From Fusarium oxysporum f. sp. lycopersici 4287 (Eukaryota > Ascomycota > Sordariomycetes > Hypocreales > Nectriaceae), in contig NC_030997.1 in NCBI RefSeq assembly GCF_000149955.1, forward strand, positions 620,001 through 684,000: 64,000 nt of DNA, written 5' to 3'. A model generated the notes under the pieces. That model saw nothing but the letters and a program-made list of their open reading frames with translations. It did no database searches and was not told where the DNA came from. This document shows, piece by piece, positions 17,147-61,327 of this stretch (its first letter is position 1; every line of letters begins with the position of its first letter). The translations under genes and the position numbers were made by a program.

Positions 17147-18018
17147 TGTGGTAGAGTTCAAATAGTGGTGTGAAATAAATAGATACGATAATAATCTTGG
17201 GTCTTGAGGTGCAGAAGTACTGAATCAGTTTGAACTGTTTAATTACAGGCCGGTTTGCACAATGTTATCAAGGTGCTATCTATAATAGAGCCGCATCTTC
17301 AATCGCCGAACCATCATTCAAGGGTCAATCTCGTACCAGTGTCTTCGGGGATTCAAGCGGTGCATTGATTGGCTCATGACCGAGACTTCAGATAAGGGTG
17401 AATCAGTCCGCCAGGATCTTGATCGGCGATTGAAGGCCCTGCATGAAAATAGTAACGTTCAAATCGCTTGTTGAACCAACCCTCCTCGCGATATTATAGA
17501 GAGAATACTTTTAGATTGCCCAAGGATAATCATGAAGGGACTAAAACTATCTCAGCTTCTACTTCTCTATGAGGTCGATGTAGAATGATGAATGGGAAAG
17601 AGAACAATGGGATTCTCGGCTTGAGATTGTAGATCATGTGGATATCTTCGGCTTATTGGTTGTTATCGACTGGCCAAGACGTGGCCTGATATCAGCTTAT
17701 CAGTGCATTGACCACTCACAAGCTCGAGTCAGATCATCCTGTCCCCACTCAACATTCTTCAACTTCGTGTTTGCTTCTGCAGTTGAGATAGCATGATACA
17801 TATGCACATTCGTTCAATCAATCAATCAATCGTCTAATCTCTTTTTTGGCCGCTGCAAGTTGTATCATATGCTTGGTTCAATCTAACGATTCTCCATGAG
17901 GCTCATGCCTTGATTGCGCAATCTGTGCTGATCAAACCCTGCATATCTTTCAATCGCCGACTCACCCGAATCCACCTCCTTCTGATATCCCATCCTTACC
18001 GACTCACCGCAGATCATC
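17147..18018. other. Intergenic, divergent promoter of cysteine dioxygenase and a Zn2Cys6 gene
   Basis: 872 bp without a convincing reading frame. A short AATC repeat (CAATCAATCAATC) lies at 17815-17829. No clear transcription-factor palindrome was seen. Confidence 0.55.
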
Positions 18019-42437: not shown

Positions 42438-43104
42438 ATGGTTACTTCAAGAGTCGATCCCGCTGGTTAGTGGCCTTCGAGCCAATCACTACCTTTCGAT
42501 CTGAGCGAACGATGTTAATAAACTATATAAAATAGATGCCCTGCAGGTTGCTGCAATTACTTTCGACTGGGGAGACAGCCTCGATGCAAAGGTTTGTACG
42601 GTCATTCCATGTTAAGGACCAAACTTATCTAACCGACTTGCAGGACTGGGATCGCCTGGCCAGCATCGTCGCCCCAGAACTGGTTGTATGAGTTCCCGAA
42701 AAAAAAACACTTAAACATTATTCTGCTAATATGATATCCTCAAGGTCGATTATACCGTCGTGACGGGTGAAAAGTGGGATGCCATGCCAGCTAAAGACTT
42801 TGTCGCCATGGTTTCAGACCCAGGATTTGTTGGCGACGCTCTTGTTGACAGCCAGCATTTTATCGGGGCTTCCAAATATGAAGTTCTCTCAGATGGCCGT
42901 ATAGTTGGTACTCACCAGCTCCGAGCTGCCCACCAGCGATATACAGGGCCTGATAAGAAGACTGTTGAGGCCAAGGGCCACTGCCATGCTGTTATGCAAC
43001 ATACTTATGCAAAGGTTGATGGCGAATGGAAGTTGGCGGGCTTAAAGCCGACCATGTACTGGAATGAGCATGATTTTTCTAAGATTTTCAAAGGAAGCCA
43101 GTAA
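42438..43104 (+). CDS. Scytalone dehydratase-like (SnoaL/NTF2-fold) enzyme
   Basis: Exons 42438-42465, 42536-42591, 42644-42685 and 42745-43104 give 161 aa. The ATG sits in GCGCCATGG. The first intron has a GTTAGT donor. The protein follows scytalone dehydratase along its length: TFDWGDSLDAKDWDRLASIVAPELVVDY, AMPAKDFVAMVSDPGFVGD, DSQHFIGAS, HQLRAAHQRYTGPD, GHCHAVMQHTYAKVDGEWKLAGLKP and HDFSKIF. The active-site His pair (QHFIG, AAHQRY) and the Tyr of VVDY are kept. From memory of the melanin enzyme, the Tyr before SKDW is Leu here, and the SAN triplet is AVM. It is therefore probably a dehydratase or cyclase for another substrate. It opens the cluster. Confidence 0.85.
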
Positions 43105-43647
43105 AGTGTGTTTATAATACGCGATAGCTCGAATAGAGTTCAAGCACTTTTCTAATCAATGCCGTTCATACCCTTGATGTCCAGATAAACCCCGATCGTT
43201 GATGTTGAGAAATGCGTCTTAACGGCTAAGATCAAAGCAAACTCTACTTCTCATCTCCCTCGTTTCATGCCTGGATAAACACGGTATATAGTGCTAATGC
43301 ATATAGAAAAGAGAATTTAGTCTGATCGAAGTAAAACTGGAGTAAAACTCCGAGCTGCATGTGACAGTCAAAGCGCGTTACTTATCATCACCAAGACTGC
43401 GCCCGTTCACGCTAGAAAGCATAACGTGATAGGCAAGTTTGCGCCATGACCTTTCTGTTCGAAACATCACCATCTTGAAACTAAGGTTAATGTACCAAAA
43501 TAAGGTTCAAGACGGAAATACAACGTCAATGCGCAGGACCCCAGATGCCGTCTCCTCGTGGCTTATAACTACCAAGACAGGTTTCCAGAAATATTCCAAG
43601 GCTTGGTTTCCTTCACGACATTCATTTAACTTCTACACTCTTTAATC
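43105..43647. other. Intergenic
   Basis: 543 bp upstream of the MFS exporter. No supported gene. Confidence 0.5.
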
Positions 43648-45482
43648 ATGTCTGATAGATCTTCGTGTGAGCATAGCGAAAGGGCCAATGAAGTTAGAAG
43701 TGAAGTTCAGGGGAATAGTAAGGTGTCTATGAAGAGTTTGCTGTTATTACTTGTAAGTGCTATCTTCATCCTCTTTCACAATTGTGAGCTGAGAATTGCT
43801 TCTAGTCGATCAATCTGGTATACTTCGTCCATGTTGCCAATGTCGTTGGATCTGGTGCCTTGACCAGAGACATCTCCGCTGTTGTTGGCGGCTCCCACGA
43901 TTCTGTCTGGTACAGTGAAGTGATCGCAATCTTGACAGCCCTTCTTGGCATTCCTGCTTCTCAAGCCGCCGATCTCTGGGGTCGCAAGACGATACTCGTT
44001 TGCTTAACGAGCTGTGGCTTTGTCGGGTCTCTCATTATCGCCAAAGCTTCATCTTCCGGTACGGTCATAGCTGGATTTGCGGTTTCAGGCATCTCATTCG
44101 GTGCGCAGCCGCTTCTCCATGCCATTTCTTCTGAGGTCGTTGCTCGCAAGTATCGTCCTTGGGCGCAGGGCAGTATCAATGTATCAGCTTCTCTAGGAGC
44201 CATTATCGGCCTTTTGATTGGTGGCGTGTTGACTAGACATGAGCATCATGATGGCTTCCGGGCCTACTGGTATATGGTTGCTGGCATATATGCAGTTGCG
44301 ACAGTCGCATGTCAATTCTTTTACAACCCGCCTCCAAGAGCCTTGGAAATTGTTCTCAGCGTACCAGAGAAAATGCGTAACCTGGACTGGGTCGGGTACG
44401 GCTTCTTGACTCCTGCGCTTGTCCTCTTCTGCATGTCTCTCGCTTGGAGTGGGAACCCATATTCATGGACAGACGCCCATGTACTGGCCACATTTCTCAT
44501 TGGTGTACTTTCGGGAGTGGCCCTTATCGTCTATGAGACATCGATCAAAAAGAACGGCATGTTTCATCATCGTCTCTTTCGCGATCGGAACTTTGCACTA
44601 GCTTTGGGTTGCATCTTTGCTGAGGGCATGGCATTCCACTGTGGTAACAACTATTTCGCCTTTGAAGTCAGTGTTCTCTTTGCAACCGATAATCTTATCA
44701 TTGGGGCCCAGTACGGCATGGCCTTCATAGCTCTGGGTATTTCTGCCATCATGAGCGGTATATGGTGCTCCATCAGTAAGGCTTTGCGTTTCCCGATTAT
44801 CCTGGCCTTTGGCTTCAAGATCCTGTTTATGGTCCTGATGGCTACTGTCTCCAAGTCCACACCTCAAGCCCTCATCTGGATATACCCCATAACTCTAGGT
44901 CTCGGATTGGGTATTTGCATGCCAGCGCTGATTACAGTAGCTCATTTTGCAACACCTCGAGAATTGATCGCGATTACATCCGGTCTTATGATCTCTATCA
45001 GAAGTGTGGGAGGATCTATTGGGTTGGCCGTATTCAACGCTATCTTCTCTAATGGGCTCTCATCCAACTTGGGACCCAAGATATCTCATGCCGTCTTGCC
45101 ACTTGGCTTCCCCGAAAGGGAGTTGCTTCAACTCATACCCGTCCTTGCCCATAACGATACAGTGGCGCTCAAACAGATTCACGGCATTTCTCCAGAAATA
45201 ATTCACGCCGGGGTCGATGGTCTTCTGGAAGCTTACCGTGTAAGCTTTCGCGGTGTCTGGTTGACCACTGCGAGTCTATGTCTCGTCGCTAGCATCGGTG
45301 AGTGGATAACAAAGACAAGTGAACCTCAGGGAGAATTTGATTGCTAATCATTCATCTTAGCCGGTTTCTTTCTACGCGATTCCACTGAGAAGATTGCTTC
45401 CCAGATCGACGCGCCCATTGCACCGGATACAGAGGTTGTAGAGATCAAGAAGAGGACAAAGATTCCAGGCGATTCTGCTTAG
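43648..45482 (+). CDS. MFS efflux transporter, TRI12/siderophore-transporter-like
   Basis: Exons 43648-43752, 43806-45297 and 45361-45482 give 572 aa. About 12-14 hydrophobic helices follow a short polar N-terminus. LWGRKTILVCLTSCGFVGSLIIA matches the loop 2-3 signature of drug:H+ antiporters. AQGSINVSASLGAIIGLLIGGVL is the antiporter motif C-like segment. The central loop carries the FHHRLFRDRNFALALGC pattern common in TRI12-type pumps. Such pumps export the product of an adjacent toxin or metabolite cluster, or give self-protection. Here it lies between a dehydratase-like gene and a DMATS gene, so export of the cluster product is the simplest inference. Confidence 0.9.
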
Positions 45483-45774
45483 GAGGCTATACATCCCGTG
45501 ATAGGGACATTTCAGAGTTGTAAACTTTAGTACGATAGTGCAAGACATTAATTCCATTTCTTTATTATTAGCCACGTTTCTCCAACATTGCAATGCCCAT
45601 TCAAGGAAACCTCACAAATGGTGCCACATATGTTGTCATGTACACCCCTTTCTTATGGGAAAAGTTGAATGAGACAAAGGTATGCTCAGTTGGTGTCGTG
45701 ACCGTATCATCAATGACATCACTCCCACTAAAGCTATTAGCATCACGGTCATAAGAAAGATCAGTGATTACTTA

Positions 45775-47016
45775 CTATGCATCCGACACAATCTTCTGGT
45801 ATGTGCCCTCAGCACCCCAAGCCCATCCTCTTTTACGGAAGACCTTCTCCATTGCTTCGGTAGCATCCTTGTCGCTCTTGAAGTATTGGTTCAAAGGCAC
45901 ATAAATCTTGACCTCAGGGATGCCTTGATCAGGCCTAAGTTCCCAGCTGAAGCACGCTCCGCTGACATTAGGCTTATTCTCCAAGATCTTCTTTGAGAAC
46001 TTCTCATCGAATTCCTTGTCCTCTGGCTCGTTTATGAGGATATGCCACATATCACGAAGAACCGCTAGACCATCCATTGTTGTTTTGTCTGTGATTTGAC
46101 CTCCCAGGGTGACGTGCTGTACAACTGCTTCCCAGGTGTTGGACTGAGGTTCGATGTAGATTTTGACTCGGGCACCTTCTTCCGGACTTACGCAGTCGAT
46201 ACCAATAACCACAGTTAGCGGTGGGTCTTGGTACAACTTCCTCTGGTACCGCTCGATCATGTCGATAGCTGGTCCAAACGATGGACCAAGGGGATCAAGT
46301 CGTCGGATGAGATCAAATCCAGCTCTATCCGAGTTTTGCTTTGCTGTCATCCACTTGATAACAGGGTAGAAATATGCCTTCATAGTCTGCTTGTCCTCCT
46401 TGAGATCAAAGGCCAGAAACACCTTAGGTATGCGAATAGTGTCCTTCGGCATCTTCTCCGCTAAAATCACAGCATCTTCTTCGGATGGATAGAATTCGGC
46501 GGCAAACTGATTGAACCAGCGGAGATCAGCACCCGTCTTCTCGGCAATTCTTGGAATGGGATCTTCAGTGACACCATCTGAGCCTGGAAACACGGGTTCG
46601 TAGCAGAAACGGACGTATGAATTGCCGCCGTCACTATTGTTGAGGCTGGTTTCGAATGGTGAGCCATTCGGGGTCAAGAGTGATCTTGCACGATCTTTTG
46701 TAGGGGCGCGCCCCATGCTCGGAAGAATATAGGTGTCAAGGAACTCGAGATGAGCAGCTTGTTGTTCGGGAGTGTAATCTCCAACGGATTTGAGAAGAGA
46801 TGCGAGAACCGGTTTGGTGTGTTTCGTCCAGAAGGCTATGCCATCTTCTTTGGCTTTGAGATCTGAGGGCTTATTACTGGTAAGTTAATTCGGTCAGTAT
46901 ATGAGGTATGCTCGGATTTTTTTGTCACACCTTTCTCCTGTGCTTTGAAGAGCTTCTTCTTGGTCCGTTGATGCTGCAGACATTTTAAGAGTAAGAGGCT
47001 CTAATGTCGATGCCAT
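45775..47016 (-). CDS. DMATS-type aromatic prenyltransferase
   Basis: Exons 47016-46931 and 46876-45775 give 395 aa. ABBA-fold prenyltransferases transfer dimethylallyl or longer prenyl groups to aromatic acceptors without metal. GIAFWTKHTKPVLASLLKSVGDY is the N-terminal signature. GSPFETSLNN holds the likely acceptor-binding Glu, and YVRFCYEPV, ARVKIYIEP and GIPEVKIYVPL carry the Arg/Lys/Tyr that bind the diphosphate. It is short compared with typical members (420-470 aa), mainly at the ends. A second ATG (MSAASTDQEE) lies 11 codons in. Tryptophan-derived and other phenolic acceptors are possible; no NRPS, TDC or PKS is nearby. It shares a 338-bp promoter with the divergent epoxide hydrolase. 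Confidence 0.93.
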
Positions 47017-47354
47017 ATTGCGAAGAGCTGTGATCTTGGTAGCTAGATTGGGTTATGAGCGAAGGTTATCAGCGCTGCCTGCTTTGCTGGAGATGATTTT
47101 GTCACTGCTGTGATGCTCTATCCGAGACAGCCGTAGGGGCTAAGTTCTGACGGCGGGGCCAGTGAATAACCCTTGTCAGTGAGAGAGATAGGCACCAGCT
47201 CACTGAGTTTTAGCGCACAGCTACGCGCAGCTTTTATAGCTCTGACTTGCAGTCCTTTCTTGACTCGGACAAAGCGGTCCAAAGAATCACAGTTCAATTA
47301 GTATCTCGCTTCTGATTCGCAAATTTCGTTGCTAACGCTTACTCCATGTGAATC
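47017..47354. promoter_or_regulatory. Divergent promoter, DMATS / epoxide hydrolase
   Basis: 338 bp. It contains CGG-N6-CGG (47266-47268 and 47275-47277), a possible Zn2Cys6 site, and a TTTTATAG near 47232. Regulation is not proven. Confidence 0.45.
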
Positions 47355-48393
47355 ATGGACAATGTCGACAAGCGATTCACCACCAGCGATGGTGACACCT
47401 ATGCCTACGACTACATCCCGGCCAAGGACAACAAAGAAACGTTTCTCTTCATTCACGGTTGCCCTTCTTCGCGCTACGACTGGCGATACCAATTTGAGGA
47501 CCTCTCAGAGGCAGGTTACGGGGTTATTGCCCCAGATTGTCTCGGCTATGGCGATTCTGACAAATGCGCCGACCTTGAAGCTTACAATTTGAAGCGTCTC
47601 AGTGGGCACTTCATAGAATTGCTAGATCAGGAGAAGATTAGCAAGGTCATTGGCGTCTCGCATGACTGGGGATCTATGGTCATGTCTCGAGTTGTTGTTT
47701 GGCATCCTGAGAGATTTTCCAAGCTGGTGTTCATGTCTGCGGGCTATACAGCGCCTGGAGTGTTCTTTGACATTGATGGACTGAATGTCTGGAGTCAGAA
47801 GGAGCTTGGGTATATGCAATTGGGTTACTGGTACTTCTTCAACTCATATGATGCCGAGCGAGTCATCCTTGACCATGTATTTGCTTAACCCAGTATTCTG
47901 TCAAGCAAATTCGACTGACTACTTACAGTTGGAGTCATTCTTCCACCTCGCATACGCCGACGACAACGCCCTCTGGATAACAGGCCTTGCGGCCATTAAT
48001 GGAACGCGAGAATGGCTGACCTCCGACAAGACATGTCCCCTCCCTCCATTTCTCACAGAAAGGGACAAGACCCGCTGGCTTGAGATAAACAGACGAAAGG
48101 GCACCATCAAAGGTCTACTCAACTACTACCGTTGTCTCATGCGTGGAATACAGGCGGAGGATGAGGATCCACTGACAGATGAGCAACGCACACTCAAAGT
48201 TCCAGTTCTCGGCATCTGCGGCGGTGGAGATATGGTGACACGGGCGGATCAAATTGGGAGGGGTATCACACCATATGCAAGCAAGGGCTACAAAGAAGTG
48301 GTTCTCGAAGGAGCGGGACACTGGATCATGCTTGAGAGACGTGCCGAAGTTACAAATGTCTTGGTGGAATTTGTCCGTGAGGATTCATCATGA
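47355..48393 (+). CDS. Epoxide hydrolase-type alpha/beta hydrolase
   Basis: Exons 47355-47876 and 47929-48393 give 328 aa. LFIHGCPSSRYDWRYQ contains the HGxP oxyanion motif. GVSHDWGSMVMSRVV has Asp as nucleophile in the Sm-x-Nu-x-Sm elbow, the hallmark of epoxide hydrolases and haloalkane dehalogenases rather than esterases. The cap region includes two Tyr (GYWYFFNSY), and the catalytic His is in GAGHWIMLERRAEV. A likely role in the cluster is opening an epoxide made by the P450 or peroxygenase, giving a diol. No signal peptide. Confidence 0.92.
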
Positions 48394-48955
48394 ACTGCTG
48401 GGTTACAATACTGGTTATCACGGCATCATGTAGATAGTTAGGGGAGGACCAAGCGGGAATTTACAAAAGTACCAATTTATCTTGGAAACTTGGCTTGCAT
48501 GATCCTACATCAAGATCACAAGTTTGAGGGATTAGATTACAATATGCATATGCGTCGCTGCATTCATCCTCTTCTGATGTTCTCTGCCAAGATTTTTATT
48601 CTGCTGCCTTGTCATCTGCGGGGTGAAGGATCAACGTCCATGTTCTATCTATGCGGGGTGTCAACGTTGTAAGCGGGGATATCCTGTGGGGAAGTGAAAT
48701 CAGGACCATGAAACATGCCATTGGAGGGGTTAATTAGAAAGGACTAGGGAAGAGGAGATGATCTGTTAGACTTTCAATGTGTTGATGCATGCTCAAGAGT
48801 CGGTCTACTGAGACATTTGGTTCTGGCCTATCGTGTTTGGGCGTATGTTGCGATCGGATTTGACATTCCTGTCACTCATTGCTCTATCGGGACATGACTG
48901 AGACTAATTTCTTACAGTTTGCTCTACATACATGCCGAGATCTATCTATGCCATT
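48394..48955. other. Intergenic between convergent hydrolase and P450 genes
   Basis: 562 bp, 3' flanks of both genes. Nothing recognised. Confidence 0.5.
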
Positions 48956-50705
48956 TCAAGCATGGTTCCTCTTCTTGAGCGTAATAAGAAATCGTCCGCA
49001 TGGCTCGTCAATTGTAACCTTGCGAACATTCTCCGGTCTCTCGTCCAATCTCTCAAAGTCATAATCCATAAGCAGATGCGTCAGCGTAAGCTTAAGCAAG
49101 TTGCTTGTGAAGAACCTTCCAGGGCAAGCTCCCCTTCCAAGCCCAAAATTCAAGAAATCCGGTGAGATGTCCGTCATCCTAGGATGCTCAGGATCTTCCA
49201 TTGATCGACGAGGATTAAACCCGCCAGGGTATGTCCTCTCATCTCTCTGATAGGCCTTGATAGGTGCAGCAAGGATGGCACCCTGCGGCACATGGATGCC
49301 GTTGGAGAAAGTGAAGCCGCCCTGTTTACCCACGGCTCGCTCAATGCCCGTCTCACCGATTGGGTTGTAACGAATGCTCTCTCGGATGAGTGAGTCCATT
49401 AACGGCAGCCTTTGGAAGAATTCATGTGAAAATGCATCGCCTTTGGCCATTTCCTGGCTTATCTCGGCACGCAAGTCGCTGATCATGGCTTCGTAGTCGC
49501 CTGCGGGGAGTGAGATGAGGTCATATACCAAATTGGTCATTGTGACGAGGTTAGTGTACGATTGGACAAAATTTAGAACCATCATTCTGGCGACGATGAC
49601 CATTGGTTCGTACTCTGATGGGCCGTTGGGGTCCTTTTTGGCGGCCAGGATGATGGCGCTCAACATATCATTCTGGAAATATCAGCCGCTGTCAAGAATA
49701 TAGATCTTAGACCTTACAGGCAGATCCGGTTCAATGTCCTTTTCTTCGGCCGCATCAATGATAGCCATGCGCTCCTTCAGCACGGGCGTAGCGTGCTTGG
49801 CAGCTGTCTCAATGCATCGCATCAACGGGCGGCACATGTAAGGCAGCAGAAGCCTGTATAATGTCAGCATCCTATCACTGCAATCGACAAGAAACCATTG
49901 TCTTGGGGCTGCTTACGGGCGAAGAAATGGTGGGATAAATCGGGCGTACAGCGCTGACGCAAAGAATGTGGCGGCGTATTCAGCTGTAGCATCTCTGTAC
50001 TCTTTGTTGTCACACAAAGGCTGACCTGAGATAATACGGTTGGCAGATCTGCTGAGAATAGCACTTGCTGTATCCCACATATTTATCTGCACAACACCAT
50101 TGGAGTCAAGCTTTGAGGCGACATTGTCATCCAGAGCAGCCTTCATCTCCTCATTGACCATGGGCATTTTGTCTGCGACCTTCTGGTAGAGCTCTTTGTG
50201 AACAACATTTCTGTAGACGGGGTGAATGACGATATGAGGACCAAGGGTAGTGTAGTCAGGTACAAGGGCTTGGAGAGTATATCTCTTGAGAGAAATGTCA
50301 TTCTCAGGTTGTTTGACATATTCATTCAGCAGCTGCTTTGGCACCATGAGCATGAAGCCCGTGCTGCAGTGGAGGATTGGAACGAGCTGAATACCTCCAT
50401 GGCCAGCTTCAAGAATCTAATCTTATAAGCTTTGGACCCCAAAGGGCAAACAGTGTAGCCTACCTTGCGATGAGTCTCCTTGAAATATTCTTGAGACTTA
50501 AGAGCAACTTCATATGATGCCTTCATGAATATACCGACACTTTCGTATCACCAGCCCAGTTGAACTTCTGGTAATCCTTGGAGAGTGCCGCTTGAAAAGC
50601 AGGTTGCATGAGGTGTAGCAGCCATGCTGCAGTGGTGCCAATGATTGTGTAAACAACAACCCGAGGCAGAAACGCCTGGACGGTAGTAGCAAGATCAACA
50701 GCCAT
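48956..50705 (-). CDS. Cytochrome P450 with one apparent 1-base deletion in exon 1
   Basis: Exons 50705-50464, 50416-49917, 49853-49718 and 49672-48956. The N-terminus is a membrane anchor (VVVYTIIGTTAAWLLHLM). The body reads ILEAGHGGIQLVPILH, RESIRYNP (ExxR of helix K) and FLNFGLGRGACPGRFF (heme Cys), ending in CGRFLITLKKRNHA. Exons 2-4 are clean (451 codons), but exon 1 has 242 nt where 243 are needed. The frame breaks near 50528-50535 between FNWAGDTKVSVY and FMKASYEVALKSQEYF. The type resembles fungal P450s in indole or terpenoid pathways. It is divergent from the UbiA gene and presumably oxidises the prenylated scaffold. If the deletion is real the enzyme is lost. Confidence 0.9.
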
Positions 50706-51414
50706 TGTGACAAAGCCTGAGATTGGAAAGAATGATGAATTGTCCCAAAAGTGGAGGCTAAAGCTGCTTGTAAAGGTCTCACTAAGATGAGGGATGAGGT
50801 CAAGGGTAAAAGAATGTTGACTGGAACAAAGACCACAATACCTTGTTAATCCCCGCCCCACCTCGAGGATGTAACCGTCACTTTTTAGGATCCAACCCAA
50901 AGAATTTGGGGAGCCAATTACTTGTGTGAGAATGCTGCCGCCTGATGACGATCGATTTTGTTCTGTATGCAAGAGTCCTATCTAGGGTCGGATCGACTTC
51001 TTGGAAATATCTCGTCATGATTCAGAGTCTGCTTCAGGACTTCGCTTACATGACGAGGGCGGACAACCTTGCTCGGAGATATCCTTGTCGCAGGGCGTGG
51101 GAGGCTTGGGATGCATCAGTTACATGCTTTTGGCGGGACTTACTGATGGCTCTTGATCAATGATGGAACAGCTTGGCGAGAGGAGTTAGGTCGGAGTGGC
51201 CGTGGATCACTGGTAGACTTGCTATTTGATGCCGAAGCCGACAGGCGTCAGTGAAAGCGGGAGGAATTGTCGGTGATTGTCCGCGTGAAAGCATGACAGC
51301 CCATCCTAAGTTGTAATTCTCTTCTCGCCCTTATGACGTTTATTTGCCTAGTACCTTTCCTTTGACAACCTTTCCATCTGCTGATCACACTCTCGGCTTG
51401 GTTCAACATCAAAC
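50706..51414. promoter_or_regulatory. Divergent promoter, P450 / UbiA-type enzyme
   Basis: 709 bp. It contains CGG-N5-CCG at 51192-51202 (CGGAGTGGCCG), plus other single CGG sites. No long reading frame makes sense in it. Confidence 0.4.
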
Positions 51415-52415
51415 ATGTCCAGGACGAATACCTTCTACAGCCTCGGTGTAATGCCTGCATTGATGGGACTGGGCCATCTGGCTCCAGCCATAGGTGCTAT
51501 ACAGACTGCAACCGGCTCGTATCACTTTCCTGTGAGGCTACTTGGACTCATTGGTACCATATCAGCTGTTGTTGACTGCAAGTCATACTCTTAACTCTAT
51601 TCAATTCCATCCGAAGAATATGCTACTGACAATCCCCTCTGTAGCCATGGACACATACAAAGATCTCTCACCATCAAACCGACCTGCCAAGTGGATATGG
51701 AATCTTTGGGTATACGGTCTCTGGGCCATTGTCCTGGCCTGTACTGCAACGTTAGACCTTCACACAATATACGACATATATCGTGTCCTACCTCTTGGTC
51801 TGGCTTGGGGAATCCCTTGCGTCCCATTGTACTCAATCTCCAAGGGGTGGATTCTAAGCAAGCCCAAAACTCTGGTAAGCTCAACACTCATTCTATGCAC
51901 ATGACATATCCTTACACTTTTAGCTCTTTGAAGCAAAGTCTTTGGTAGTCGCATTCTGTATGGCAAGTGTTTGTGCCGAAGCCAGCATGGCTTATTGCTG
52001 TCGACAAAAGGAGTACCAATGTGCGAGCAGAGATTTACGAGCAAGAAGCTTTTATCTCGCCGTCTTATACCAATTCTTCCGTGAGACATCATGCGACATC
52101 AGAGATATTCCGGAGGATACCAAGGAAGGTCTCAAAACATTGCCGGTCAAGCTTGGCAAACAGAACACAGTATTACTCTTGGCTACGGTAGGCGTTTTAG
52201 CCGAATCACTACTCACTCACGGTATCGACATAACAACGTCAGGAATTAACGTGAAAGCGCCATTGATTGCCCGTGCATTCTTACGAGTTGGTCTGACAAT
52301 GACGTCGTATTGGCAAGTCTTGAGGTTCCCCAGGCAGAACTCATGGGCTTGGGGGTCTATGTCACTTCTGGGACTGGCTCCGGTGCTTTTTGCACAAGCT
52401 GCTCTTCGTGACTGA
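51415..52415 (+). CDS. UbiA-superfamily membrane prenyltransferase or terpene cyclase
   Basis: Exons 51415-51577, 51645-51874 and 51924-52415 give 294 aa. The first intron must use a GC donor (GCAAGT...GTAG). Only that splice keeps the frame and builds the first Asp-rich motif, DSMDTYKD (D-x2-D-x3-D), followed by NRPAKW. The second motif is DIRDIPED, followed by TKEGLKTLPVKLGKQ, as in UbiA proteins. Hydrophobic segments (LWAIVLACTATLDL, VLLLATVGVLAESLL, SLLGLAPVLFAQAAL) fit a multi-helix bundle with both motifs on the same face. Members join prenyl diphosphates to acceptors. Some fungal ones (FmaTC of fumagillin) cyclise farnesyl diphosphate. With no PKS or aromatic-acid maker nearby, cyclase activity is a fair hypothesis. 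Confidence 0.88.
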
Positions 52416-52711
52416 CTGAACAACATCGAGGGGACGATTCTGGAAATCTCGAAAATTTATTAAGCCTGCATATGAAGATCGTGATGCGAACAACCGGGGA
52501 GTTTTGGAGATGCCCTTAGATATAGATAGCGATTGAATAGAGTGCAATCTGACAACGTCTCAATATCTCACAGTTTTCATCGAAGAAAGTGTCATGCTAT
52601 ATCAAGATCCTTTCATCGGACAAACAAAGTCGCTACCTCATCTAATCCGAAAGTTGAGTCTAAACTATTCAAGCTATCACAGCCCCTCCCAGCTGAAGAT
52701 AAAGATCACTG

Positions 52712-54377
52712 TCAAAGTTTAGGCGCTCTGCCAGCATGGCTGAGCTGCTCAAGGTAATCCATCAAGTCTGTCCACATCTCTTGCGGCAACGAGTTGGAAA
52801 ACCAAGTGTTCCCTTCATAGTCCTTACCAACCACTACAAACACGCTCGATATGGCGGAGACAGTATTGTGTCCGGGATCAGAAGCTTGATAATACACAGG
52901 ATGTCCCCTCTTCCCCCTTCTAGACTCAGGGCGTACCTCCTGTTCTATCGCGGGACTGAAGTCCAGCTTCTCAGCAAGGTCACCCTTGGTCCAATTTGAC
53001 ATGAACTGGGCAGCCATGTTGGTGCTTCCAAAGACGACGGGCATACTGTTCGTCTTCATAGACTCCACTGAGAGCGCCGTTGAGGCTTTCAGCTGTTCCT
53101 CTGTGGTCTGTGCTTGTATGGCCTCTCGTACTTGGAGAGCAAGTTTCCCCAGTGGTAGGTCCAAGATTTCGTTGGCGCGACAGAACACAAAGGCATTGGT
53201 AGGAGAGTTCTGCACGTATGCCTTGTCTGGCAAGAACACCGATCGGGCTCGACTTCGAGGGTCAACAGCCATGATAGTTGCCAGCTCCCGATTCGTGCCC
53301 CGACCTTGATACTTGGCTAGCATGAGACAAGAGAGAGCGGCGAAGATATCACCCTCGCTGATGAAAGGCTTGTCATTTATGGCTTCCTCTTCTAGGTGGC
53401 TCCTAGCTTGCTGCATCATCCTTCTAATTGTATCTTTCGGGATGCACAGAGTCCGCGACCGAATGTTGCCGGATCTCCACGATTCATACAAGCTCCGTAA
53501 GCCCCAGACTTTGAAACGCCAGCCATCAAGGATCTTATCTGCAAGAACATGGGGCTCCTTGCGTGGCGATTTGAGCATATCGTCAAACACATCTTTCCGG
53601 TATCCTGGCATTGGGATAACAGCTTCTGGCTTCCCGGCCAAGACCTGACTCCAAGCCTCGAATATGGCAGACAACCCCATCAGGTCAGTTGTTACATGGG
53701 AAAATGTCAAGTTGACAAGAGTGCCGTCAGTGAAGGTTTGCACATGGAGACAGAATTGAGGGATGTCAGAGTGAACAAAATCGTCCATGTTGCGGGGCGT
53801 CTCGGGGCGGAGTCCAAGAGCACAGAATTCTTTCGGTCCAGTATAAGTAGAGATACTCCCGGTTGGCTTGGGTAGTCTGGAAGCCAGCGGATGTTCTGAC
53901 ATTGGGGTTTCAAACTCTTCTTTGGTGAAATAAACTGCTGGCCGGTCGTTTGTAAATTCTCGTGGAACATGTATTTCGAGTCCGCCATCTGGCTGTATGC
54001 GGGTCAATATCGAGAAACTTCGTGGAGCCGTGAGAGCATACCCTTTGCCGAAACCTTCCACCTAATCTCCGCCATCCCTCCATTTCAAAGAGCTTGGACA
54101 GAGCGTCGCTCAGTTTATGGGGGTTCAATACGTCTTCAAACTGCAAAGTCCATACCAATACGATTCCCCGCGCCGCTGCAGTATCGTCGAACAAGTGCAC
54201 CGGAATGATGTCATCTGACTCAACAGTGTCCGGGAGAGGATGTCGCTCTTCCTTCTTGGAGAAAGGTAGGTAATTGAGCAAAGCCGACATTGCCGTTGAG
54301 AATACAAACTTTGCAAATTGGTGCAATGACTGCCATGATACGGGGGAAATTTGTTGATCTGTACGAGTTGCCGCCAT
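52712..54377 (-). CDS. BAHD-like acyltransferase (trichothecene 3-O-acetyltransferase family) with one surplus base
   Basis: ATG at 54377 (MAATRTDQQISPVSW). The span is one base too long for a multiple of three. Frame 1 covers LFDDTAAARGIVLVWTLQFEDVLNPHKLSDALSKLFEMEGWRRLGGRF, and frame 2 takes over at GKGYALTAPRSFSILTRIQP (near 54045-54053, at a TTT run). The catalytic HxxxD is FSHVTTDLMG. The DFGWG position appears as DFSPA. About 554 aa if corrected. The family acylates hydroxyl groups of secondary metabolites with acyl-CoA in the cytosol. Here it would esterify an alcohol made by the P450, hydrolase or SDR. It shares a divergent promoter with the glycosyltransferase. Confidence 0.87.
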
Positions 54378-54746
54378 GATAACAAGCGAGATGCCAAGCT
54401 GGATGGCAAGGTAGCATGCAAAGGATTACATTCCCTGCTCTTCCTCTGTGGTGCGGGGTTTTGGATGCCCCTCCTCTACCCTAGCAAGGCAGCAGTTTAA
54501 GGATTGGCTAATCTTTTCAAAGGATAGAGCTCCAAGGCAAGGTAGTTTGAATGGCTGACGAGCTGGAGGAGCTGGTGGAATTGGTTAAGCGAAGTTCACC
54601 TAGTTCAATGTACAACATGAGTTGACGCGGAGGCAAGCAGACACCTGCCTTGGTTTTCTGTGCAGAGAAATGTGAGGCAATTCACTGTCTTTTTAAGTAA
54701 CCTGTGAATAGTGTCAGAAATAATTGCAGTGAACATAGGGTTCGCC
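54378..54746. promoter_or_regulatory. Divergent promoter, acyltransferase / UDP-glycosyltransferase
   Basis: 369 bp between the two start codons. No clear palindromic site recognised. Confidence 0.4.
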
Positions 54747-56429
54747 ATGTTTGCCCGGCTCCTCTTATTTACAACCTTGCTCGCTGTGTCTCTGGCTTAC
54801 TTCCTATCCCGCGAGACCTCGACAGAACATGCGCCATATGTCCAAGGAAGAAACAAAACCGTGCTTTTCCTCACAAACAGCGAGCATGGTCTATCCAATG
54901 TGCACCTTGCAACTGCATCGGCGATACTAGAGAATTACCCAGATGTAGAAGTTTATTTTGCTTCATTTTCGTCTATTGAGCAAAAGTTGGAACGAGTTTC
55001 CTCATTCGCCAAGATCAAATCTCCTCATGCGAGAGCCATCGTTTTCCACGGTCTCACCGGTCTGACATTTGTGCAGGCAATCGCCAAAGAAGGTCGAAGC
55101 TTCATCTCCCCTCCAGGATGGAGAGGTATCGCTACTTTGGCAGAGCACATACAGCTTTGGATATCGCCATGGACATTTGAAGATCATGTATACTTGTACA
55201 AAGAGCTTGGTAGCATTATCGATGAGGTCGACCCAGCAGTTATCGTGCTCGACAGTTGGTTCCGGCCAGCTATAGATGCCACGCGAAAGAGGAATAGGCA
55301 GCATGCCTTCATCACGCCGAATACTCTTGTAGATCATTTCTTAGGTATACAGCCGCTCTGGACCAGGTTATGGAAATACCCTGCGTAAGTCGCTTGCGTC
55401 AACTGAGATTGGCTGATCCTAATAGCAATAGCCCATCGTCAGGCTTTCTCTCGCCGATTCCTCTGGTGAAAATCCCAGAAAATGTATACATGAATATTCG
55501 TTATATCTACAGCGCAATGTTTACGCCAGATGCTTCAAAAAAGAAAGCTCGACTTCAAGAGATTGGTCTAGGAGAACCTATGAACTTGTTCGGAATGAAT
55601 CGGCTAGGTGTTCCATGGATTACCCAAAACACACAAGGCGCCATGATCTCAGTTGAAGTTATTCCGCCAAATGTCACCTGTGCTGGGCCAATCATCCTAT
55701 CAGGGCCGCCAGCTCATCAACAAGATCCTCAAACTGCAACTTGGCTCAAGAAAGCCCCTACAGTTCTCATTAATCTCGGTAGTAATCTTGCTGTAGGTCA
55801 TGAAGAATACAATAATTTCACAGGTAGCTGATGTTTGGCAGTATGACCAAAGTCGTGCTGAAGTCATGGCGATCGCCATAGCGGCGTTACTATCCTCTAC
55901 TAATTACCAGGTCTTGTGGAAATTTAATAAGCTGGGGGACTTCTCTGATGATTTCTTGGTGCACTTGAAGCCCTACCTCGACAACGAGCGACTAAAAATG
56001 CCAAGTTGGCTTGTAGCAGACCCGTCGTCACTTCTCGATACTGGGAACATTGTTACTTCAGTGCATCATGGCGGTTCAAACTGCTATCACGAAGCCCTCG
56101 CGTAAGTAAATGCTCAAGACTACTCGGCAGACAACCTCTGACCATCGCAAAGAGCCGGTGTTACGCAAGTTATACTTCCTCTATGGGCCGATCTTTATAA
56201 CTACGCTGCTCTAGCTGAGACAAGTGGCATTGGGGTTTGGGGTTGTAAGGATTCAACGCCCAACTGGATGAGTGAGTGTTTGTTGGATGCTTTCATGGAA
56301 GGAATAGATGGTTGTGGTGAGAGTCTCTTACAGCGACGAGCAAAATGGCTGGGTGATAGGATTAAAGCAGGGAAGAAGGGGCGTGATGTAGCAGCTGATG
56401 AGATTGCCAAACTGGCATACGTGAAATGA
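54747..56429 (+). CDS. UDP-glycosyltransferase (GT1-like), membrane-anchored
   Basis: Exons 54747-55384, 55432-55792, 55824-56101 and 56153-56429 give 517 aa. The N-terminus MFARLLLFTTLLAVSLAYFL is a signal anchor. TVLFLTNSEHGLSNVHLATA starts the acceptor-binding domain. The donor domain has LINLGSN and the PSPG-like region [38 protein letters not shown] (His, Glu and Asp in place). The second intron would be only 31 nt (GTAGGT...TTTCACAG) but restores the frame exactly. Otherwise a 1-base insertion must be assumed there. A role in glycosylating the cluster product, for storage, resistance or final form, is inferred from position. Confidence 0.88.
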
Positions 56430-56900
56430 TCAGAGGGGTCTCAGTAGAGCTTCTGCAAGGCAAACAAATCCAAGAATGCTAGGTTCTGGTTCATTTTATG
56501 CTGCTAAGCAGAATCCACTCGATAAAGCATTTTTTATCAATGTGTTTGTCCCTGTCTTGCTGTTCCGTGATCATAGAGCTGAGTATCTCGTGATGGAGCC
56601 AAGTACCATCTGATTACATAGAATGCAAGCGCCTCAATCAGCACGCTACCTGTAAAGTGGTCCGTTTGCTTCACTAATGCCCCTGTAAGCGATACGCCTG
56701 CTATACGCTTGCCGCTAGTTAATAATACGCCTCTAATACGCAATACGCCAACCAAGAACAGCGTATTCTTTCGACAGGATTAGACGCAGAAATAGAAGTT
56801 ACCGCAGTAATAAAAGAGATAAAAAGCGTTAAATATGTGTCTCTCTCCCTGATTCTAGAAGAAGAGTTACTTCCAACCCCAAATAGTATTGTTTTGCAGA
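56430..56900. other. Intergenic with ATACGC repeats
   Basis: 471 bp upstream of the peroxygenase gene. See the repeat at 56692-56748. No gene. Confidence 0.5.
56692..56748. repeat. Five copies of ATACGC in 57 bp
   Basis: ATACGC at 56692, 56703, 56725, 56736 and 56743, irregularly spaced. It may be a decayed microsatellite or a regulatory repeat upstream of the peroxygenase. Confidence 0.5.
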
Positions 56901-57782
56901 ATGAGAGCTTTTCTTTTTTCCTCAGCATTCTTCGCAATCGTGGCATCTGCCATGCCAGATCCAAAGGGTCATGAGTTCCGCGCCGCAGGACCCTACGACA
57001 GTAAGCCTTTCATATTAGACTGGAAAACTGACCAAAATGTTAACATTGTGTCTCACTACAGGTCGATCACCATGCCCAGGCCTCAACGCTCTCGCCAACC
57101 ACGGTTACCTTCCACGCGATGGTGCAAACATCAATTACGACATGATCAATCATGCAGCCCAAGCCGCTTATCATTTCGAAGATGGCTTCTACATCGATGC
57201 CGTCAACATGGTGTTTCAGCTTGATATCTCCACCACAAGCCGACCCAACGAAACGTTCCATCTCCGAGACCTGGCTCAACATGACCAGATCGAGGTCGAT
57301 GGCTCTCTCACTCGAAACGACATCTTCTTCGGCGATGATTTGCACTTCGATGCTACTGTCTTTGATCCCGTCGCACGCGATCTTGGGCTGGATAAGATTA
57401 GCCGTAAAGATAAATTTGTCACAATCGAAACAGCGGCCAAAGCAACGAAAAATCGACTCGACCTTGCCAAACGTGTCAATCCGGAGTTTAATGACTCTGT
57501 ACATCAACACAAGACGGAATATGGCACTACTGCACTCTATCTTCTGACATTGTGGGATGAGCACCAAAAGGCAGCACCAAAGCATTGGGTTAAAGCATTA
57601 CTTGGTAAGACCGCTCTCTCAATTTTGAGGCTTAATTCTGTAGTGATATGGGCTAACTAGTTGCAGGCGAGGACAGGATTGCTTATAGAGAGGGATATAA
57701 TAAAGGGAAATCGGTCAAGACGAATAAGCAAGTCGGTGCTATGACTCAAGCTGTTCGAGCGGTCGTTGGGTGGAAACCTTAG
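56901..57782 (+). CDS. Secreted heme-thiolate peroxidase/peroxygenase (short type)
   Basis: Exons 56901-57000, 57062-57604 and 57667-57782 give 252 aa. Signal peptide MRAFLFSSAFFAIVASAMP. RSPCPGLNALANHGYLPRDG carries the proximal Cys, and EVDGSLTRNDIFFGDD the distal Glu. The size fits the short unspecific-peroxygenase group. With H2O2 such enzymes hydroxylate or epoxidise terpenes, aromatics and alkanes, and some halogenate. It sits inside the cluster beside the epoxide hydrolase, P450 and glycosyltransferase, but as a secreted protein it might act on exported product or be unrelated. A longer relative is at the left window edge. Confidence 0.92.
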
Positions 57783-58206
57783 TTGAAGATCTATTTACAG
57801 ACTTAGGGGAAGACAGATAAAATTTGAATGCTATAATTATCTGTGAGATAAGTTCTCAAAATACACTTTACTACGGGACTGTTAATTATACTTTGTATAA
57901 GAGTTAATCGTGCCAAATAATTCTACCACGTTAGAAGGAGACCCAATACCCCTCCTCGTCATTGCAGAATGACAACCATGAAAGGACTACTATGCCACCT
58001 TGCCTTGAAATGGACAACACGCATCGATGGACGACACAATATGCACCGCGACAAGAACTTATCGCTATTAATTCTCTTTCAAAAGTTCGGATTCAATGAC
58101 GTAGCGTGACGTCTTCAGTACGTGCTCATGACGCCCGTATCTCTGACGATATTACCACTCGACTCCCGTTCCCATGAACCAGATCAAACCTCATTGCAAC
58201 ACCACC
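57783..58206. other. Intergenic
   Basis: 424 bp. A CGTGACGTC-type string near 58106-58114 resembles a CRE/ATF site (TGACGTC) upstream of the SDR. Confidence 0.45.
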
Positions 58207-59034
58207 ATGATGCCTAAAACAGCCGTCGTCAGCGGCGGAGCCCGTGGTATCGGCCGTACCCTCGCACGTTATTTCCTTGAAAAACACTACCGTGTCTTTA
58301 TCCTCGACATAGACGAGCAAGAACTTACTCACACAACACGCACGCATCTCAAGTCCTACTACGACTCCAAAGCTGTTGACTCAGCCATCTGCGACTTACG
58401 CAACACAGATGAGATTTACGATAGAATCCAACAAGCAGCCAAATTTCTGGACGGCCATATTGACGTTGTCATCAACAATGGCGGTATTGCGTCACCGCAT
58501 TGGAAAGATGGCAAGACTATGGCTGATCGAGAGACGTTGAAGGAGTGGCAAGCGTACATTGAGACGAACCTCACGGCGCCATTTGTGGTCTCTCAGGCTT
58601 GTATCCCGTTCATGAAGAATGAGAAGGATACGGGGCCTGTTACGGATGATAGTCATAGCACTGCTGGGCCTTGCATCATCAACGTGGGATCGTTCCGCGC
58701 AAAGCAGAGCGATCCAAACCAAGAAGGCTATGCATCCGCAAAGGCTGGTCTGTTGGGTCTTACGCACAGCATGGCTGTTAGTCTGCAGCCCTTTGGGATC
58801 AGGGTGAATCTGGTTGCGCCGGGTCGTATCAAGGCAGGTCATGAGTCGAAGGAGGGTGATGAGAAGGGTGTTGAGTGGGCGCATTTGAACGAGGATAAGG
58901 ACGTTGAGGATCACCTTACGAATAGGGCCGGAAGACCGTTAGATATTGCTCAGGCTGTTGAGTATCTGGTCAACGCTGGCTTTGTGACAGGTCAGGATCT
59001 CATTGTCGATGGAGGCGCAGTCATGATCAAGTAG
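58207..59034 (+). CDS. Short-chain dehydrogenase/reductase (classical SDR)
   Basis: Intronless, 275 aa from the ATG at 58207 (MMPKTAVVSGG). An upstream in-frame ATG at 58174 adds 11 residues and is less likely. VSGGARGIGRTLARYFLE binds NAD(P). VVINNGGIAS replaces the usual NNAG with NNGG. NVGSFRAKQS holds the catalytic Ser, YASAK the Tyr/Lys, and IRVNLVAPGRI and VTGQDLIVDGGAV complete the fold. It is the last oxidoreductase of the putative cluster on this side; membership is uncertain. Confidence 0.92.
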   Translation: MMPKTAVVSGGARGIGRTLARYFLEKHYRVFILDIDEQELTHTTRTHLKSYYDSKAVDSAICDLRNTDEIYDRIQQAAKFLDGHIDVVINNGGIASPHWKDGKTMADRETLKEWQAYIETNLTAPFVVSQACIPFMKNEKDTGPVTDDSHSTAGPCIINVGSFRAKQSDPNQEGYASAKAGLLGLTHSMAVSLQPFGIRVNLVAPGRIKAGHESKEGDEKGVEWAHLNEDKDVEDHLTNRAGRPLDIAQAVEYLVNAGFVTGQDLIVDGGAVMIK

Positions 59035-59346: not shown

Positions 59347-61327
59347 TTAGTCGACACCGCTGTCAGAGTCGTCAACAACAGCCGGCTTCGGCTTGGTCTC
59401 TGTAGCTGTAGCTGTAGCTAGTCTCAGGGGGCCCAGGGCAGGGCCGAGTCGTGCTCCCGGGGCGGGCCACTTGTTGGGGCCGAGAATTTGAGGCTTGTTT
59501 CTGTGATCGTGTTAGTATGCGGTACTTGCATACGGTGTCAAGGGACCGGGCAGTGGGGACGTACGCTTGCTCCTCGGCGGCAGCATCCTTCTTCTTTTGC
59601 TCTTCCTTTTGTTGTTTGCGGAGAGCACGGCGAGCATCCTTTTCCTTACGCTCAGCAGCGCGCTTCTCCTTCTCCTCAATACGCTTCTTGGCCTCGGCGA
59701 GCTTTCGCTCCTTCTCCTGGACATCAGCGCGTCTCTTCTCATCAGCCTTGCGCTTCTCCTCCAGACGCTTCTTCTCTTCGAGCTTTCGCTCTTCCTCAAT
59801 ACGTCGCTCCTCTTCAAGACGCTTCTCCTCCTCGATTCTCTTCTTCTCCTCAAGTCTCTCGCGCTCCTTCTCCTTCTCGCGCTCCTCGGCGGCCTTTCGT
59901 CGACTCTCGGCCTTCAGCTTCTTCTCTGCAAGGCGACGCTTCTCTTCGACCAACTTCTTCTTCTCCTCGAGCTTACGCTTCTCCTCAGCGCGTTTCTTCT
60001 CTTCAGCACGTCGCCTGTCCTCGGCTCTCTTCTTCTCATCAAGCTTCTTCTGTTCCTCGAGTCGCTCTCTCTCACGCTCCTTCTCCATCTCCTCAATCCT
60101 CTTCTTCTCTTCAACCTTTCGCTTCTCCTCTAAGCGGATACGTTCGCGCTCATTCTCCTTCTCGCGTTCACGCTCTCTCTGCCGTTCCTCTTCTCTCTCG
60201 CGCTCCTTCTCATGCATCCTCAACTTCTCCTTCTCAGGATCTGAGCCTGGGCTTGGACTCTTGATCTTCATTGAGGCTCGGGCTGATTCGTAGTCCTTGT
60301 ACCGGTCCCTTCGGTTGTCGTTGTCAAGTTGGCTGAGATGTCGGCTATGGCGTCGCTCTCTTGCGCGTTCAGGATCAACACTTCTGGTGTATGACCTCTC
60401 CTTCTCGCCGCGGTCAGAGTCACTGTTCTTGGGGGTAGCTGCCTTGCGCTCGTTGTGCAGTCGTCGACGCTCTGCTCTCCGAGCCTCCCGGTCCTCATCG
60501 CGACGTTTGTCTTCTTCAGGAGCGCGAGGAGTGTGGCTATGTGAGGCTCGTGAGTGCTCACGACTACTCTTGTGTCGCCTCTCACCGTCCACGCGACTAG
60601 ATCTCCTCTCGCGTTCGGCATACTCAGGATCGCGATGCCTGATGGAGGCAGAGGTAGAGTGTCTCTTGTCAAGAGTAGGTCGTTCTCTCATAGACCTGCG
60701 CTTCTCCCTCTCCCGTTCCTTGTCCTCTTCATCACTTCGTCCAAGGAACCTCCGTGAGAGGCGACGAGACTCCTTCTCATCGCTTCTCTCTTCTCTCTCC
60801 TCACCTTCGCGTCGCTTGTGTCGTCTGTGTCGCGTGCTTGGACTACCTGCTCGGCTTCTGTCACGAGTATGGCGGTCTTTCTCAGTGCGACCACGCTCTT
60901 CATGTTCCCTGTGTCGACGACGACGTTCTGATCTTCTGGCCTCCCGCTCCTCGGGTGTCTCGGTTTCAGACCGATGACGCCTGACCCTTCGGTCGGGACG
61001 TAGAGTCGGTTCATCCGCCGCCTCCGGGCTGACCTTATCTCTGTTGAGCCATTGTCGCCACGACGACTGACGCTTCTCCTGGACAGGCCTCTCAACAACA
61101 GGCCTGCCCAAAGTCGGTCTACCCAGCGTGGGTCTGTTGACCACCAACCCGGGATCGTCTACCTTGTAGGCAGGAGGGGGCTCAATGAAATCGACAGTGT
61201 TCTGAGAAGTGTCACTGTCAGACTCGTCATCAGTGAAGACCTCCCAGTCAGACACGTCACGGACGACGGGAGCGGGAGCTTTGGCGGCAGAAATCCCTGG
61301 ACCTTTGACACGACTCTGATGGGCCAT
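59347..61327 (-). CDS. Highly charged Glu/Lys/Arg-rich coiled-coil protein, function unknown
   Basis: Exons 61327-59565 and 59500-59347 give 638 aa. The intron has GTACGT and a TACTAAC branch, and splicing gives the C-terminus ANKPQILGPNKWPAPG... DDSDSGVD. An acidic N-terminus (VSDWEVFTDDESDSDTSQNTVDF) with TLGR repeats is followed by an Arg/Ser-rich middle (RRHREHEERGRTEKDRH). A 250-residue EEKKRLEE-type single alpha helix or coiled coil covers about residues 360-590. Such proteins occur across Fusarium, but no function can be assigned. Low-complexity frames on the opposite strand are shadows. Confidence 0.85.

Follow-up and report, generated by a model that had tools for sequence, protein, structure and literature searches.

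What would Fusarium oxysporum f. sp. lycopersici 4287 make with a run of ten metabolism genes that holds two prenyl-attaching enzymes of unrelated kinds, a DMATS and a UbiA-superfamily member, and neither a PKS nor an NRPS? The genes (g1 to g10 in order) occupy positions 42,438–59,034 of the window, the 64,000-nucleotide stretch of DNA analysed here, to which all coordinates refer. Both the kinds and the positions of the ten genes in the original prediction were borne out by a Pfam match for every one of them. The same search of the ten genes returned no PKS, NRPS or terpene synthase domain, as had been predicted for the first two, and the scaffold-making candidates within the cluster are the two prenyltransferase-family genes. 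Nine of the ten have intact frames after ordinary splicing, the P450 gene being the exception, and the 19 introns were removed at ordinary borders (18 GT-AG and one GC-AG, the latter in the UbiA gene). A second copy of the cluster in the genome was considered and rejected: the UbiA protein, the only one of its type found there, matches its own exons only, and the DMATS family occurs at three places on three contigs.

The two prenyl-attaching enzymes

The DMATS-type aromatic prenyltransferase g3 (45601–47016, reverse strand; 439 aa, 2 introns), a core member, scores 300.1 bits against Trp_DMAT PF11991 (cut-off 25, E 3.5e-89) and 319 bits against TIGR03429 (cut-off 163.85), and the test for the ABBA prenyltransferase barrel recognises it. 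Its best matches in F. oxysporum and F. verticillioides share 88–90% identity with it, FVER14953_12218 among them at 89%, and its sequence marks it as the orthologue of DMATS4 (FVEG_12218) of F. verticillioides. Its E104, invariant in 23 aligned rows, falls on what we take to be the catalytic Glu of FgaPT2 (E89). At the positions of FgaPT2 K174 and R244, whose numbering and roles we likewise assume, the alignment to 3i4x places F and V, with a one-residue gap beside the first. These replacements, together with a score of 153.1 bits against the 740.75-bit cut-off of the TIGR03430 equivalog, led us to reject an FgaPT2-like L-tryptophan C4 dimethylallyltransferase. The orthologue of g3 is also only 22–23% identical to DMATS1 of F. 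fujikuroi (PDB 8day, 8daz, 8db0, 8db1), which differs further in giving reverse N-prenylated tryptophan, according to the accessible text of PMC5675463. The flavanone prenyltransferases FgPT1 and FoPT1 were set aside as equivalents at this same distance, FgPT1 being DMATS1-like (it shares 89% identity with DMATS1 and 82% with FoPT1 in the available part of the source).

The DMATS is not new, because it is the orthologue of an enzyme named in 2013, when DMATS4 was catalogued as an orphan Fusarium 'key enzyme' (PMC3694855). DMATS4 was also found in F. oxysporum V64-1, and its expression is low throughout the three conditions of Table 5 (PMC5675463). In their accessible parts, these accounts of the F. 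verticillioides and F. fujikuroi locus name the DMATS alone, with low expression and no product, and do not describe UbiA, epoxide hydrolase, acyltransferase or glycosyltransferase partners. The set had been described as unrecognised among known pathways; this holds in that the literature searched contains no characterised equivalent, but not for the DMATS itself, already known as orphan DMATS4.

The UbiA-superfamily membrane enzyme g6 (51415–52415, forward strand; 294 aa, 2 introns, the first a GC-AG intron at 51578–51644), also a core member, has the two Asp-rich motifs of that superfamily, its PF01040 score of 20.5 bits (E 3.3e-4) lying below the 34.2-bit cut-off; 21 of its 37 relatives carry the domain in the database. 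Its predicted structure is a moderate model only (pLDDT 67). Motif I, VDSMDTYKD (residues 53–61), and motif II, CDIRDIPED (residues 188–196), are kept in relatives, and D54/D57/D61 and D189/D192/D196 are invariant in 15 relatives chosen for complete models, while motif I is incomplete or missing in six further relatives of a wider alignment. As given in the accessible text of PMC9835599, UbiA prenyltransferases bear NDxxDxxxD and DxxxD, and UbiA-type terpene cyclases NxxxG/AxxxD plus QDxxDxxxD. The aspartates and motif II of the former are present in g6, but Val53, invariant in the 15 relatives, replaces the Asn of motif I. From the cyclase signature g6 departs by this same Val for Asn, by an Asp at the G/A position and by a motif II that starts with Cys188 instead of Gln. 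Judged by its motifs, g6 thus fits neither the characterised UbiA-type terpene cyclases nor, strictly, the UbiA prenyltransferases.

Other genes of the locus and their promoters

Four more genes complete the core. The product of g4 (47355–48393, forward strand; 328 aa, 1 intron) is an epoxide-hydrolase-type alpha/beta hydrolase (Abhydrolase_1, E 3.3e-21) whose best PDB match is EphA 5cw2; HGxP, HDWG and GHW are kept in the alignment, and we take HGxP, the HDWG nucleophile elbow and a catalytic His to be motifs of epoxide hydrolases. The cytochrome P450 gene g5 (48956–50705, reverse strand) belongs to the core by position. The P450 call survives as to the domain, since PF00067 matches the piece after the frame change with 92.4 bits (E 3.6e-26) and that piece contains FGLGRGACPG, but not as a single clean frame: the N-terminal reading leaves frame near 50,535–50,546, and we left the model unmended. 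No convincing intron was found at this point. The sole GT-AG solution noticed, a 44-nt intron, would remove a stretch that seems coding in the nearest P450 paralogue of the genome (32% identical, same contig; alignment judged by eye), and the frame change may reflect genuine damage to the gene or a fault of the assembly. The acyltransferase gene g7 (52712–54377, reverse strand; 1 intron), again core by position, matches Transferase PF02458 (E 4.1e-10) and carries HVTTD, an HxxxD motif, and sequence search at E <= 0.001 gave no PDB relative for it. The family-1 glycosyltransferase g8 (54747–56429, forward strand; 511 aa, 3 introns) matches UDPGT with E 2.1e-5; some of its relatives carry the label SdnJ.

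Upstream of these lie two probable outer members on the forward strand. The first, g1 (42438–43104; 161 aa, 3 introns, with an additional in-frame ATG at 42429), is a scytalone-dehydratase-family (SnoaL) protein that matches Scytalone_dh PF02982 with 199.6 bits (E 3.6e-59) and is homologous over nearly its full length to scytalone dehydratase (1std, 3std; 161.6 bits). The earlier description of it as scytalone-dehydratase-like is kept at the level of the family but not at the active site: Y30, S129 and N131, which we take to be active-site residues of scytalone dehydratase, become L, A and M in the alignment to 1std/3std, replacements on which an ordinary scytalone dehydratase was rejected. 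The second, g2 (43648–45482; 572 aa, 2 introns), is an MFS transporter (MFS_1, 85.9 bits, E 3.3e-24; TRI12, 46.7 bits). Downstream of the core, also on the forward strand, g9 (56901–57782; 252 aa, 2 introns) is a probable outer member of haem-thiolate peroxygenase-like type (Peroxidase_2 PF01328, E 2.7e-45), whose closest relatives of solved structure are the UPO of Marasmius rotula and an artificial UPO and whose N-terminus, by inspection and not by a predictor, resembles a secretion signal. The single-exon g10 (58174–59034; 286 aa), a short-chain dehydrogenase/reductase (adh_short_C2, E 1.2e-38), is a candidate member.

The three divergent promoters proposed earlier do exist, as head-to-head pairs with intergenic spaces of 338 bp (g3/g4, 47017–47354), 709 bp (g5/g6, 50706–51414) and 369 bp (g7/g8, 54378–54746). 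When exact k-mers of 7 to 11 were counted in these and in all seven intergenic spaces against 60 dinucleotide shuffles, no common motif emerged from either set, k-mer frequencies being close to those of the shuffles: two 7-mers are common to all three divergent promoters (1.8 expected), and the largest excess is one 9-mer in three of the seven spaces (0.3 expected). A shared promoter motif was consequently discarded as evidence of co-regulation.

Linkage in other fungi and the proposed pathway

Three probes were searched for homologues, UbiA (37 matches), DMATS (46 matches) and the glycosyltransferase (24 rows compared among 120 listed), and contigs were counted as shared when the match tables gave them identical lengths, which is a proxy. 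UbiA and DMATS relatives have seven contigs in common, UbiA and glycosyltransferase relatives four, and DMATS and glycosyltransferase relatives four, F. torreyae and Mariannaea being present in all three pairings. In five of the seven assemblies comparable by locus tag the spacing of these relatives equals that of the window: F. torreyae (010235 glycosyltransferase, 010237 UbiA, 010240 DMATS), NRRL 66182 (_380/_383), F. torulosum (05703/05708), Neonectria punicea (005810/005812) and F. decemcellulare (g6323/g6321). The DMATS–UbiA pair is linked in Nectriaceae and also in the Leotiomycete Cadophora gregata, the sixth assembly, where the interval is one gene shorter. In the seventh, F. sarcochroum, UbiA and glycosyltransferase lie on separate short contigs, and for Stipitochalara, Rhexocercosporidium and Mariannaea the sharing concerns a multi-megabase contig, which does not show adjacency. 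Pairwise identities of UbiA and DMATS, uncorrected for species phylogeny, correlate with r=0.65 (9 sources, 36 pairs), or r=0.86 (7 sources, 21 pairs) when two sources with fragmentary UbiA are dropped. Relatives of both enzymes occur in Onygenales, and those of the DMATS also in lichen metagenome assemblies.

Because the tag spacing of DMATS, UbiA and glycosyltransferase is kept in five of seven assemblies, the six genes DMATS–epoxide hydrolase–P450–UbiA–acyltransferase–glycosyltransferase are well supported as one unit, the conservation of g4, g5 and g7 being deduced from the spacing since the searches covered the other three. Scattered homologues had been named as what would speak against a cluster; spacing conserved across genera favours one for g3–g8. 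Joint function, originally argued from proximity and divergent promoters, is accordingly retained for this core, but the promoters lack a common motif and g1, g2, g9 and g10 are weaker members, whose conservation evidence is short-range or absent and in no case extends outside Fusarium.

We put at about one in two the probability that the locus is an old, patchily kept, orphan biosynthetic cluster whose six-gene core follows a route from prenylation through oxidation to acylation and glycosylation. In the membrane, UbiA would take a prenyl diphosphate as donor and attach its chain to a small acceptor of primary or shikimate origin; the soluble DMATS would prenylate that aromatic core once more, the core probably being something other than free L-tryptophan bound as in FgaPT2. 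Oxidation of a double bond in a prenyl group would fall to the P450, possibly assisted by the peroxygenase and the SDR, the epoxide-hydrolase-type enzyme would open or cyclise the epoxide, the PF02458 enzyme would acylate a hydroxyl, the glycosyltransferase would add a sugar and the MFS protein would export the product. A prenylated, epoxidised, hydrolysed, acylated and glycosylated compound is a reasonable expectation from this predicted chemistry; the acceptor, the donor length, the order of the steps, the membership of the outer genes and the presence of the same in-between genes elsewhere are what we infer, whereas the identities of the genes and the kept spacing of DMATS, UbiA and glycosyltransferase are shown. 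The core very probably makes a natural product absent from the literature searched. In that literature, largely without subscription papers, the accessible texts (including PMC10455296, PMC11990136, PMC10512309 and PMC11509758) contain no characterised cluster that combines these genes. The mfm cluster for drimane-phthalides (PMC10882540) resembles it in a DMATS-type enzyme acting on a phenolic non-indole acceptor, in P450s and in an SDR. It differs by its NR-PKS, its Pyr4-type cyclase and its transcription factors, and a UbiA-like prenyltransferase, as far as the available text goes, is missing from its cluster group. Fusarochromanone or fusarochromene was considered as a possible product; the accessible text of one paper on the subject contains neither 'gene cluster' nor 'prenyl'.

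The membership of the outer genes leads to a reading that we hold only slightly short of an even chance, and which is compatible with the others: a conserved core g3–g8 beside mere neighbours, namely a stress or xenobiotic gene g1, perhaps g2, and the tailing oxidoreductases g9 and g10. FVEG_12220, the SnoaL-like F. verticillioides gene in the position of g1, is induced by BOA, oxindole and chlorzoxazone (log2 5.1–6.0), and FVEG_12214–12219 are unnamed in the accessible main text of the paper concerned; among FVEG_12214–12217, 12219 and 12220, the available texts of the literature searched yielded 12220 only. The spacing evidence, moreover, is limited to g3–g8. On the other hand, FVEG_12220 lies two tags from DMATS4, as g1 does from g3, which makes it by position a putative g1 orthologue, and g8 and g9 adjoin in eight public models, where the peroxygenase is fused to the glycosyltransferase (8 among the 120 glycosyltransferase relatives listed), although all eight are from Fusarium. 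Epoxide hydrolases, acyltransferases, glycosyltransferases, MFS proteins and peroxygenases are common detoxifying enzyme types, and with the induction of FVEG_12220 they would suit a cluster that acts on plant phenolics or other xenobiotics and makes no product. We regard this as improbable, given that prenyltransferases of two families are unusual in a detoxification set and that the two stay close in Nectriaceae and Cadophora.

That g6 is instead a non-canonical class I terpene cyclase on FPP or GGPP, like Fma-TC in fumagillin and Tps1A in Antrodia, with the P450, epoxide hydrolase, acyltransferase and glycosyltransferase decorating its product and the DMATS making a separate or later-joined aromatic part, appears unlikely. 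The Fma-TC and Antrodia tps1/tps2 clusters do contain a methyltransferase and a P450 along with such a cyclase (PMC9835599), and g6 lacks the canonical Asn of motif I; its motifs nevertheless differ from theirs, and the accessible account of those clusters describes no DMATS. The idea survives the mismatch because the reference list of PMC11745945 includes one more subgroup of cyclases, whose motif I is of another kind. Somewhat less doubtful, though still less likely than not, is a decaying cluster inactive in 4287 through its broken P450, which could hold alongside any other reading: the frame change falls in a region that looks coding in the paralogue, and DMATS4 varies among F. fujikuroi strains (PMC5675463), but nine of ten genes are intact and the break could be accounted for by the 44-nt intron or by a fault of the assembly.

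One tentative reading makes the locus the representative of a class of pathway not yet described: a divergent UbiA subfamily (VDSxDxYKD ... CDxRDIxED) would perform the first prenylation, ether-forming or cyclisation step on a primary metabolite and a non-tryptophan DMATS would complete the skeleton, with PKS, NRPS and canonical terpene synthase all absent. The reaction of the g6 subfamily lies beyond prediction from known motifs, and genome mining that starts from PKSs, NRPSs or canonical terpene synthases would have its focus elsewhere than on this product. The six core genes are a defined set that could be reconstituted heterologously, and the conserved neighbourhood suggests that DMATS4 works not alone but with a UbiA-family enzyme, an epoxide hydrolase, an acyltransferase and a glycosyltransferase.

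Gene models and setting of the ten-gene block

The ten adjacent genes of the original prediction (42,438-59,034) were confirmed by gene models, with introns cut out at splice borders, and by Pfam checks on all ten, but the frame of the P450 is interrupted, leaving nine clean models. The window occupies 620001-684000 of its contig (C12) in a genome of 61.2 Mb and 71 contigs. In the P450 gene (48,956-50,705, minus strand) the first ~55 codons and the remainder lie in different frames, changing near 50,535-50,546. A 44-nt GT-AG intron could connect both frames but would remove a stretch that, by eye, is apparently coding in the closest paralogue (32% identity, C12:752,490), and we therefore left the interruption, which may be a lesion or an assembly error, as read. 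This paralogue (C12:752490-753725, ORF of 520 aa) lies ~82 kb away on the same contig. Within 48956-49681 the I-helix region reads NFVQSYTNLV, lacking the usual acid-alcohol pair.

The UbiA model requires a GC-AG intron (51,578-51,644), and the residues across its junction are identical in relatives from several genera. Public models P0001 (from F. oxysporum, standing for 71 grouped sequences), P0016 and P0019 omit ~8 residues there, with motif I's first Asp among them, probably through an annotation error. The best UbiA match is an F. oxysporum entry (97% identity), those of DMATS are F. oxysporum and F. verticillioides entries (88-90%), and the listed glycosyltransferase (GT) matches include F. 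oxysporum (92-94%) and F. acutatum (91%); our GT model (511 aa) equals the F. torulosum and F. acutatum models in size.

No pathway regulator lies inside the cluster, as the original prediction states; a Zn2Cys6 factor lies 22 kb off (17,986-20,025). Left of the block, a 166-aa open stretch (40982-41711) adjoins a run of 100 N (41612-41711) and hits the X-Pro dipeptidyl-peptidase family Peptidase_S15 over residues 64-149 of 262. A heterokaryon incompatibility (HET) domain gene (35807-38110) carries PF06985 (72 bits, 35807-36793) and goes on in another frame from 36848, where Pfam gave no match. The minus-strand ORF at 4275-6236, with Reprolysin (M12B) and Disintegrin domains and a transmembrane-like segment, is an ADAM-type metalloprotease. 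At the right border, a minus-strand ORF of extreme charged repeats (R/E/K; 59372-61348) had no Pfam match.

Conservation of the core and of the outer genes

The core runs DMATS, epoxide hydrolase, P450, UbiA, acyltransferase, GT. Equal-sized contigs in the match tables served as a proxy for a common contig among 37 UbiA relatives, 46 DMATS matches and 24 GT matches (120 listed of 366). Seven of the 37 UbiA relatives apparently share a contig with a DMATS relative and, against those 24 GT matches, at least four with a GT relative, as do at least four DMATS matches. Sharing in Stipitochalara, Rhexocercosporidium and Mariannaea is weak evidence, since these contigs are megabases long.

Locus-tag spacing equals that of the window in five of seven comparable assemblies: F. 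torreyae (GT 010235, UbiA 010237, DMATS 010240), Fusarium sp. NRRL 66182 (UbiA 380, DMATS 383), F. torulosum (DMATS 05703, GT 05708), Neonectria punicea (UbiA 005810, GT 005812) and F. decemcellulare (UbiA g6323, GT g6321). Cadophora gregata (UbiA 006520, DMATS 006522) has one intervening gene fewer, and in F. sarcochroum UbiA 11131 and GT 5399 lie on two separate short contigs. F. nematophilum and F. avenaceum were left out, their GT in the same tag series being a distant paralogue (50-52%). Cadophora, Stipitochalara and Rhexocercosporidium are Leotiomycetes, and Mariannaea belongs to the Nectriaceae. DMATS relatives extend to Onygenales and to metagenome assemblies from lichens (Bathelium, and Trypethelium of the Dothideomycetes), and UbiA relatives to Blastomyces, with no linkage seen there. 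DMATS and UbiA pairwise identities correlate (0.65, nine sources; 0.86 over seven, two with fragmentary UbiA sequences dropped), which species phylogeny alone could produce. It is firmly supported that the six-gene core behaves as a unit of inheritance, DMATS, UbiA and GT having been followed directly in other species.

Support is thinner for the outer genes. At least eight of the best 120 of 366 GT relatives, all from Fusarium, are fused to a Peroxidase_2 domain (P0087, P0088, P0089, P0091, P0092, P0094, P0102, P0136; window counterpart 54747-57782), most likely as gene-model fusions of two adjoining genes. In the two inspected, P0087 and P0136, the C-terminal end resembles the window's peroxygenase-like protein, so that both genes adjoin there. 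The SnoaL-like F. verticillioides gene FVEG_12220, likened to our scytalone-dehydratase-family gene by tag position and type, lies two tags from DMATS FVEG_12218, as far as the two gene types are apart in the window. The chance that the outer genes include one or more mere neighbours, which the conserved-cluster reading allows, is somewhat below even.

Biosynthetic interpretation

The original interpretation is supported in part; the divergent promoters, compared with shuffles, had no motif tying them together, so any coordinate control is hypothetical. We regard the block as a conserved biosynthetic cluster (probability about 0.9). With roughly even odds, the pathway would in outline combine prenylation, oxidation, opening of an epoxide, acylation and glycosylation, the simplest chemistry employing all six core genes, in which UbiA or DMATS may build the skeleton. 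That UbiA instead acts as a terpene cyclase seems unlikely.

The window DMATS is identified with 'DMATS4' on the basis of its 89% match to an F. verticillioides entry numbered 12218; FVEG_12218 bears that name in Wiemann 2013 and is absent from F. fujikuroi IMI 58289 (PMC3694855). Niehaus 2017 places it in seven of nine F. fujikuroi strains and F. oxysporum V64-1, with values of 0.0-4.1 in three conditions, against mostly 9-12 for the gibberellin gene DTC1 under low nitrogen and in rice, and lists no product for it (PMC5675463). FVEG_12220 shows log2 inductions of 5.1-6.0 by BOA, 2-oxindole and chlorzoxazone (PMC10512309), and MfmD demonstrates farnesylation of a phenolic oxygen by a DMATS-type enzyme (PMC10882540). 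Overall, this orphan fungal cluster is unusual in pairing two prenyltransferase families, and it has no synthase for a scaffold.
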